Part shown: one piece after another, positions 2,313 through 5,698 of the stretch
Numbering within the stretch: position 1 is the stretch's first letter
Layout of the letters: each line of letters opens with the position of its first letter
Source of the DNA: Gordonia humi
GTDB taxonomy: Bacteria; Actinomycetota; Actinomycetes; Mycobacteriales; Mycobacteriaceae
Assembly: GCF_014197435.1 (NCBI RefSeq)
Contig: NZ_JACIFP010000001.1
Location: 2,232,001-2,296,000 of the forward strand
Reading direction: 5' to 3'
DNA length: 64,000 bases
Position numbers and translations under genes: made by a program
Notes under the pieces: generated by a model
Told to the model about the DNA's origin: nothing
Databases searched by the model: none
Seen by the model: only the letters and a program-made list of their open reading frames with translations

Positions 2313-4310
<1,998 letters not shown>

Positions 4311-4387
4311 CACGGTGCGGCGGCGGTTCCGGGCGGTGGACGGGGGTGCATTCGACACGTCGTCGGCGCGGTGCTACCGTCGACGAC

Positions 4388-4453
4388 GTGTCCAACACCT
4401 CGTATTGGCGGTTCTTTATCCAGGCTCCGGGTGAGCCTGCGATGAAGCGGTAA
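4388..4453 (+). CDS. Aromatic-rich leader peptide of the DAHP synthase gene
   Basis: A 21-codon ORF starts with GTG at 4388 and ends at TAA 4451-4453. It encodes MSNTSYWRFFIQAPGEPAMKR if GTG is read as Met. The run Tyr-Trp-Arg-Phe-Phe at codons 6-10 contains all three aromatic amino acids, the end products that regulate the shikimate pathway. The ORF lies 150 bases upstream of the DAHP synthase gene, overlaps the left arm of a perfect 12-base stem, and is followed by a second hairpin. This is the classic layout of transcription attenuation by ribosome stalling. The peptide itself is expected to have no function after translation. No consensus ribosome site is obvious before the GTG. Confidence 0.7.
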   Translation: MSNTSYWRFFIQAPGEPAMKR

Positions 4454-4506
4454 TACGCGCGTCGAAGACCCGGAGCCTGAAGCAGTGACCACTCGGTCGC
4501 TGCTTC
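4421..4506 (+). promoter_or_regulatory. Attenuator-like tandem hairpins in the DAHP synthase leader
   Basis: Two stable structures follow the aromatic codons of the leader peptide. Stem 1 pairs CAGGCTCCGGGT (4421-4432) perfectly with ACCCGGAGCCTG (4468-4479) across the leader stop codon. Stem 2 is GAAGCAGTGACC (4479-4490), a four-base loop, and GGTCGCTGCTTC (4495-4506), 12 pairs including one G-U, followed by a weak T-containing stretch (TGTCGTTTC). A ribosome stalled on the Tyr-Trp-Phe codons would cover the left arm of stem 1 and change what the right arm can do. Which structure ends transcription, and whether a third pairing competes, cannot be decided by eye. Confidence 0.65.
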
Positions 4507-4603
4507 TGTCGTTTCCGGGATGGATCACGCACAGTGAAGCGTTTCGGATACGGCGCCGGTAGATCAGATACCCCGCGATATGCGCACCGAAAGGCGACAA
4601 CCC

Positions 4604-5698
4604 GTGACCATCACGACTCCCGAAGCAACCAGTACCGCGACGTCCGACCGGCGGGTGGTCGCATTCTCGCCGATTCCGTCGCCGCGCGAGTTGCTGGCCG
4701 AACTCCCGCTGACCGACCGTCGCGCCGAGGTCGTGGCCCGCGACCGCGAGGAGATCGCCGCGATCATCGCCGGCCGCGACGACCGGATGATCGTCGTCGT
4801 CGGGCCGTGCTCGGTGCACGACCCCGAGGCCGCCCTCGACTACGCGCGGCGTCTGGCACCGCTGGCCGCCGAATACGCCGACACCCTGAAGATCGTGATG
4901 CGCGTGTACTTCGAGAAGCCGCGCACCACCGTCGGATGGAAGGGCCTGATCAACGATCCGGGCATGGACGAGACCTACGACGTGGAGCGCGGTCTGCGTA
5001 CGGCGCGCCGACTGCTGCTCGACGTGATCGACCTCGGGCTGCCCGTCGGCTGTGAGTTCCTGGAGCCGACCAGCCCGCAGTACATCGCCGACACCGTCGC
5101 CTGGGGCGCGATCGGCGCACGTACCACCGAGTCGCAGGTGCACCGCCAGTTGGCGTCGGGGCTGTCGATGCCGATCGGCTTCAAGAACGGCACCGACGGC
5201 AACGTGCAGGTGGCCATCGACGGCGCGCAGGCCGCGGCCGCCCCGCACGTGTTCTTCGGCGTCGACGACGCCGGGCGCGGCGCCGTGGTGCAGACCTCGG
5301 GCAACGAGGACTGCCACATCATCCTGCGCGGCGGCACCCCCGGGCCGAACTACGATGCCGCCTCGGTCACCGCGGCCGTCGCCGCACTGGCGAACGCCGG
5401 ACAGTCGCCGAAGGTGATGGTCGACTGCTCGCACGCCAACTCGGGCAAGGACCACGAGCGCCAGGCGGTCGTGGCCGTCGAGGTGGCGAACGAGTTCGCC
5501 GCACGACGGGCCGCGGGCGAGCCGGTCCGTCTGTCCGGCGTGATGCTGGAGAGCTTCATCGAGCCCGGCAACCAGCCCGTGCCGTCCGACGCCGACGGCC
5601 GCGCCGCCCTCGTCTACGGCAAATCGGTCACCGACAAGTGCATGGGCTGGGACGCCAGCGTCGACGTGCTCCAGGCGTTGGCTCGAGCCGCTCGGTGA
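4604..5698 (+). CDS. aroF: 3-deoxy-7-phosphoheptulonate (DAHP) synthase, class I
   Basis: This enzyme condenses phosphoenolpyruvate with erythrose 4-phosphate, the first step of the shikimate pathway. It is 364 residues from the GTG at 4604, with the AroFGH signatures VVVGPCSVHDPEAALDYA, RVYFEKPRTTVGWKGLIND, GARTTESQVHRQ, GFKNGTDGN and DCSHANSGKD in order. This is the class I (E. coli-like) type, not the class II AroG typical of M. tuberculosis. It resembles corynebacterial AroF. GTG 4604 is preferred because AAAGG lies about ten bases upstream, whereas the in-frame ATG at 4580 has no ribosome site. An aromatic leader peptide and hairpins upstream suggest attenuation. Confidence 0.93.
   Translation: MTITTPEATSTATSDRRVVAFSPIPSPRELLAELPLTDRRAEVVARDREEIAAIIAGRDDRMIVVVGPCSVHDPEAALDYARRLAPLAAEYADTLKIVMRVYFEKPRTTVGWKGLINDPGMDETYDVERGLRTARRLLLDVIDLGLPVGCEFLEPTSPQYIADTVAWGAIGARTTESQVHRQLASGLSMPIGFKNGTDGNVQVAIDGAQAAAAPHVFFGVDDAGRGAVVQTSGNEDCHIILRGGTPGPNYDAASVTAAVAALANAGQSPKVMVDCSHANSGKDHERQAVVAVEVANEFAARRAAGEPVRLSGVMLESFIEPGNQPVPSDADGRAALVYGKSVTDKCMGWDASVDVLQALARAAR

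Follow-up and report, generated by a model that had tools for sequence, protein, structure and literature searches.

The closest described system is the aroR-aroF attenuator of Corynebacterium glutamicum, on which Neshat et al. 2014 is said to be the primary paper. Attenuation of aroF by an aromatic leader has been in print for this species since 2013-14, and the passages that deal with it describe an aroF gene for DAHP synthase preceded by a leader peptide that contains a run of aromatic residues, as is also found at the locus studied here (PMC4046766, PMC11802643). The actinobacterial trp, ilv and leu attenuators likewise combine a short ORF with control codons, but in the systems set out by Seliverstov et al. 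2005 (PMC1262725) and in the Streptomyces lividans list (PMC8079986) these codons specify one end product or amino acid group, unlike the three of our locus; the S. lividans attenuators are described as mostly leaderless, some of them with terminators (PMC8079986). Where the 2005 survey of Actinobacteria turns to phenylalanine and tyrosine operons, it reports no conserved RNA structures upstream of them (PMC1262725). The Escherichia coli pheL-pheA and trpL-trpE systems, as outlined in PMC11802643, also have a leader whose control codons precede a biosynthetic gene, with one end product each. A further motif, uORFC-13-1, precedes aroF in Acholeplasma with a uORF beside an apparent terminator and with Phe incorporation as the suggested signal; it belongs to another phylum, has another structure, and its description mentions no three-aromatic run (PMC8632094).

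The step catalysed by DAHP synthase commits carbon to the synthesis of every aromatic amino acid. Sensing of three end products is familiar in the form of allosteric isoenzymes, and pheL-pheA and trpL-trpE act at terminal branches, not at the first common enzyme. A single leader reading all three amino acids would, if true, be a second, translational way of doing so. Here we analysed a window of 64,000 nucleotides from Gordonia humi, and we conclude that the element upstream of its aroF gene is very probably a ribosome-mediated transcription attenuator, the counterpart in position and layout of C. glutamicum aroR.

The aroF leader region in the window

All features of the locus lie on the + strand. 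The leader ORF (MSNTSYWRFFIQAPGEPAMKR, 4388-4453), seen in frame from GTG to TAA, has 21 codons, and the control codons TAT TGG CGG TTC TTT (4403-4417) encode the Tyr-Trp-Arg-Phe-Phe run that the original prediction had reported before aroF. It is a short ORF with a run of codons for end products of the pathway and, as in the aroR type, it lies directly 5' of a class I DAHP synthase gene. This gene, aroF (4604-5698), probably starts at GTG 4604, with an in-frame upstream ATG at 4580 as the alternative (ORF 4580-5698), and its product matches PF00793 with an E-value of 2.2e-91, the sole match in the genome at E 0.001 in a profile search. A Shine-Dalgarno-like GAAAGG (4589-4594) is found 9 nt 5' of this GTG, and GAAAGG, GGAAGG or GAGAGG precedes a start codon in 82 of 85 regions with a leader of the YWRF type; the three sequences with no matching string (L011, L038, L153) were left out of the analyses based on 82 sequences. 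The preceding ORF ends at 4310, and the leader ORF and both hairpins sit between this position and aroF. When the whole window was scanned on both strands in tiles of 270 nt, only one of 474 tiles, that of the aroF leader, contained an ORF in which Tyr, Trp and Phe all fall within a span of seven codons. The Tyr codon (4403-4405) is TAT in 84 of the 85 YWRF leaders, though the genomes look GC-rich, with pairing or slow decoding as candidate causes. The genome also carries a type II DAHP synthase gene (L242, G000:C1:3754584-3755870), and a scan of about 500 nt upstream of it found no ORF with at least three aromatic residues within six codons.

A spacing of 6-7 nt between a -10-like element and a start codon is expected when the transcript begins at that codon. 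In the window, the extended -10-like element TGcTACCGT (4372-4380), a putative promoter, ends 7 nt before the leader GTG. Taking for each leader the match nearest to 7 nt, we found TANNNT 6 or 7 nt 5' of an in-frame start codon in all 85 YWRF-type leaders (77 at 7 nt and 8 at 6), compared with 379 of 4250 shuffled controls, and 68 of the 85 elements carry the TG. The leader ORF is therefore probably translated from a leaderless transcript whose 5' end is at or adjacent to its GTG. Leaderless attenuator leaders are among those described for S. lividans (PMC8079986), and about a third of the mRNAs of C. glutamicum are reported to be leaderless (PMC3890552).

The two 12-pair hairpins that had been predicted were both recovered. 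Arm A (4421-4432) lies inside the ORF, over codons 12-15 (Q A P G), and is complementary at 12 of 12 nt (100%) to arm 3 (4468-4479), which is placed immediately 5' of the second hairpin. This terminator-like hairpin, T (GAAGCAGTGACC / GGTCGCTGCTTC, 4479-4490/4495-4506), also has arms of 12 nt, 92% complementary, with 11 Watson-Crick pairs and one G-U, and shares base 4479 with the A:3 stem. It is followed by a U-rich tail (TGTCGTTTC, 4507-4515) with 5 T in 9 positions. Beyond the tail, arm 4 (TTCCGGG, 4513-4519) is complementary to part of arm 3 (4469-4475), weakly so in the window (z 0.7; 1.2 predicted pairs). For the segment 4375-4535 the folding energy is -80.2 kcal/mol; 200 shuffles averaged -55.4 (sd 4.1; z -6.1), and none of them was as good. 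A search of positions 4000-5000 of the window against Rfam gave no family match up to E 1.

Conservation of the leader and of its RNA structure

The leader is present in all 59 Gordonia genomes, the window's own included, each with an aroF match, and it reads Tyr-Trp-Arg-Phe(-Phe), mostly followed by x-x-Ala-Pro-Gly. Across the order we compared 148 aroF upstream regions, made up of the 59 from Gordonia, 9 named loci and 80 hand-picked among the matches listed to span genera. Tyr, Trp and Phe fall within seven codons of one ORF in 132 of the 148, against 40 of 2960 shuffles, controls that keep no account of kinship among sequences; the remaining 16 regions had no three-aromatic ORF. The conservation of the aromatic run on which the original prediction depended is therefore borne out, and both stems are kept in the YWRF alignment. 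The YWRF core recurs in 15 of 15 regions of group g2, from the same family, and in 6 of 6 named Tsukamurella regions; from our assignments, g2 would be Mycobacterium, g5 Tsukamurella and g6 Corynebacterium. At the nucleotide level, of 298 genomes searched in the order, 21 contain the core TATTGGCGNTTY..GGCTCCGG, in one copy each and always shortly 5' of the aroF match, and the reversed-pattern control had 0 matches in the same genomes. A record labelled Acidobacteriaceae (L039) has an aroF with 70% identity and a YWRF-type leader as in Tsukamurella, for which a binning error is a possible explanation.

By our filter, 15 of the 148 regions had no leader, yet one of these (L211) does have one. 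Leaders were not found in any of the 8 f16 regions or in L224, L225 and L227, whose enzymes are only 41-51% identical to that of the window, nor in L219, L171 and L235, despite their closer enzymes; the leader of L172 is doubtful and that of L237 is without Tyr. Among the 9 other actinobacterial named loci, those of Actinoplanes (2), Symbioplanes and Lolliginicoccus have a leader and those of Nocardiopsis (3), Mumia and a Conexibacter MAG have no such leader. For g6, probably Corynebacterium, 15 of 61 genomes had an aroF match at a cut-off of 1e-60, and 13 of the 15 upstream regions carry an RFYF leader, in agreement with the Phe-Tyr-Phe leader described in the accounts of C. glutamicum (PMC11802643). 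Trp stands directly before RFYF in 6 of these 13, and its codon seems to be variably present within g6 (L243-L257). Across most of the genera seen, Trp is part of the conserved set of putative control residues, and the predicted family spans much of the order.

In other genera the residues occur in the orders YFWF, YRWF, RWYAYF, RWFTYF, FYWF and WYQRF, and 129 of 133 leaders contain Phe-x-x-Ala/Pro, in line with a reading of the codons. Since the residues are kept while their order drifts, the reading of codons fits better than an active peptide. An arrest peptide, whose nascent chain would itself stall the ribosome and sense something besides tRNA charging, agrees with the core YWRF(F)-x-x-A-P-G being nearly invariant within the YWRF group, but other genera have the residues in a different order, and within the YWRF group the nucleotides are conserved too (TAT in 84 of 85 leaders, with the APG codons forming arm A); we regard it as very improbable.

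The paired elements were examined in an alignment of 60 YWRF-group sequences. In A:3 and T together, 97.8% of cells were paired, compared with 94.0% after shuffling, and two-sided changes were seen in 7 pairs and 51 cells, compared with 2.6 and 9.7 in shuffles, a covariation signal that was abolished by sliding the pairing partners. These changes fell in 6 of the 11 pairs of T and in 1 of the 10 of A:3, which hardly varies within the YWRF group. For A:3, the top-scoring helix had z above 2 in 81 of the 85 leaders of the YWRF type and in 19 of the 48 outside it, and between groups A and arm 3 change together, with one mismatch allowed (GGCTCCGGG/CCCGGAGCC, TGGCTCTGGAG/CTCCAGAGCCA and GCCGGCCCTGGTG/CACCAGAGCCGGC). 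In 82 sequences, the 9 nt after T never contain fewer than 4 T and average 5.4, compared with 0.9 in 9 nt farther downstream. Because this U-rich tail follows T in 82 of 82 sequences, T looks like an intrinsic terminator between the leader and aroF. Two g6 regions that were folded had, as in the window, an A/3 pair and a U-tailed hairpin. That the whole arrangement is a chance ORF with functionless hairpins has in its favour the short aromatic ORFs that arise in 40 of 2960 shuffled regions, but the conservation and covariation refute it as far as sequence allows and make it hardly credible.

The 32 nt that follow T also hold a complement to arm 3 (59 of 82 sequences at the 5% level; mean z -2.27), and under a stricter ungapped test the 3:4 helix reached z above 2 in 30 of 85 members of the YWRF group and in 20 of 48 outside it. 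Arm 4, being complementary to arm 3, could compete with A for it. In g3 and some f14 regions, 3 and 4 are close together and form a plain hairpin with no intervening T; the leader-only hairpin was described from single folds. In several g2 regions (L141-L155), the stretch from T to the start of aroF contains a GGTGCC that might pair with GGCACC beside the Shine-Dalgarno site; it showed no consistent link to arm 3 in these regions.

Ribosome position and the amino acids that may be read

In the attenuator model that we favour, a leaderless transcript would begin at the GTG of the leader ORF. With charged aromatic tRNAs plentiful, the ribosome would pass the aromatic codons and RNA polymerase would stop at T; with these tRNAs short, the ribosome would stall in the aromatic codons, the A:3 pairing next to T would be altered, and more polymerases would read through into aroF. 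The leader, its control codons, the promoter spacing, the A:3 helix, T with its U-rich tail and arm 4 are the supported parts of this model, on the basis of sequence comparison, and translation, stalling, termination, the direction of the response and the prevention of T by altered pairing are the steps that we infer. The original claim of leader attenuation of aroF finds strong support in the conservation, the terminator-like hairpin and the conserved alternative helix.

Folding with and without a ribosome was a check proposed in the original prediction. When the ribosome is represented by a simple footprint, A:3 is predicted in 81 of 82 sequences for a ribosome at Tyr, in 82 for one at Trp and in 77 for one at the stop codon, and in 0 of 82 for one at the last Phe; in the window it also forms with no ribosome at all. 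T, which A:3 abuts and which should respond to this conserved helix, was still predicted in every ribosome position tested, with a mean probability of 0.96-0.98 over 82 sequences, a result against the model. From the dependence of A:3 on ribosome position, stalls at Tyr and Trp would resemble completed translation and only stalls at Phe would differ, so that at face value Phe would be the effective signal, as reported for C. glutamicum; alternatively, equilibrium folding may miss kinetic competition during transcription. We also considered whether A:3 continues into the left side of T. The extended helix looks long, but a shuffled aromatic-codon stretch mostly does as well, and the extension did not exceed what chance would give (mean z -0.49; 4 of 54 distinct sequences significant at the 5% level).

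A different mode of action, in which a cascade of helices would free or hide the Shine-Dalgarno site and control translation of aroF, is suggested by arm 4, which is located between T and this site and can pair with arm 3, and by folds of single regions, which show further helices near the start codon. Such a sequestration cascade, from 3:4 through helices to the aroF start, had no consistent effect in our folds: with arm 3 blocked, the predicted openness of that site rose by over 0.1 in 5 of 82 sequences and fell by over 0.1 in 10, and in the other 67 any shift stayed within this limit. The conserved U-tailed hairpin also argues against translation control, which we consider very unlikely.

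Within transcription attenuation, the question is which amino acids are read. That one leader reads Tyr, Trp and Phe together, any single stall raising DAHP synthase, is in our view a real possibility that falls somewhat short of an even chance. This single sensor, advanced in the original prediction, gains from the conserved occurrence of all three residues; against it, the Phe stall gives an RNA fold different from those of the Tyr and Trp stalls, and the C. glutamicum leader is reported, in the passage concerned, as responsive to Phe and not to Tyr (PMC11802643). An attenuator sensing only or mainly Phe, with the Tyr and Trp codons setting spacing or speed, is a version of the same attenuator model, with which its probability overlaps, and we hold it as a serious alternative that is less likely than not. 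The reported response of aroR (PMC11802643) favours it, as do the position of Phe two residues before Ala/Pro in 129 of 133 leaders, the covering of arm A solely by the ribosome at the last Phe, and the presence of Trp directly before RFYF in only 6 of 13 g6 leaders. Standing against a Phe-only signal, 131 of the 148 regions retain all of Tyr, Trp and Phe despite the changes in their order.

Leaders outside the Actinobacteria and described attenuators

A set of 57 non-actinobacterial regions, taken from relatives of the enzyme in named genomes and first intended as a negative control, provided further evidence against Phe alone being read. Of the 57, 37 have an ORF in which seven codons take in Tyr, Trp and Phe, compared with 60 of 1140 shuffles, mainly in alpha- and betaproteobacteria, although the set is dominated by Bradyrhizobium and Burkholderiales and the 37 are therefore not a count of independent events. 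The genera with such leaders include Bradyrhizobium, Ralstonia, Caballeronia, Paraburkholderia, Duganella, Kaistia and Devosia, with TSYFWYFSYDSSLAAGG in Bradyrhizobium and KFFYFYFWHLAPLAEGEG in Ralstonia as examples (proteobacterial loci within L053-L111); a few of the 37 (e.g. L078, L087) look like chance ORFs, and none of the loci counted as gammaproteobacteria in this set had a three-aromatic ORF. A U-tailed hairpin lies between leader and gene in 32 of the 37 regions with a Trp, Tyr and Phe leader, compared with 3 of the 20 without, and in 29 of these 32 a leader segment of 6 nt or more is complementary to the hairpin's left arm, compared with 238 of 3200 shuffled leaders. These proteobacterial leaders look like textbook attenuators.

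If a single sensor for all three amino acids is true, its proteobacterial equivalent with a textbook terminator would mean that it is very old or has evolved more than once. The leader could then be used as a ready-made reporter of aromatic starvation, with relevance to aromatic production in actinobacteria, and the conserved trio makes the reported response of C. glutamicum to Phe and not to Tyr a testable question. Replacement of aroR for the engineering of aromatic production in C. glutamicum is already described (PMC7356990).

Our search covered open-access papers. Within this scope we found nothing on the Gordonia or Mycobacterium form, no paper on Tyr, Trp and Phe together as a family feature, and nothing on the proteobacterial aroF leader set, for which an earlier prediction in subscription papers is possible. 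Vitreschak et al. 2004 is said to be a survey of proteobacterial attenuators. The remark in the original prediction that such a layout is less familiar for class I DAHP synthase is thus apt for Gordonia, for which nothing was found in print, and does not apply to C. glutamicum, whose aroR-aroF system was published in 2013-14.

Compared with that system, the leader of the window reads Tyr-Trp-Arg-Phe-Phe, and the Phe-responsive Phe-Tyr-Phe run described for aroR (PMC11802643) is absent from it. Given YWRFF in the window and RFYF in g6, we call the two corresponding in position and layout and not the same leader type. What is new, on the evidence of the regions compared, is the place of Trp in the conserved set, the putative family across much of the order, and the predicted proteobacterial leaders with Trp, Tyr and Phe and with terminators. 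The element in the window is a real, conserved and attenuator-like one, of a kind already known through C. glutamicum aroR.
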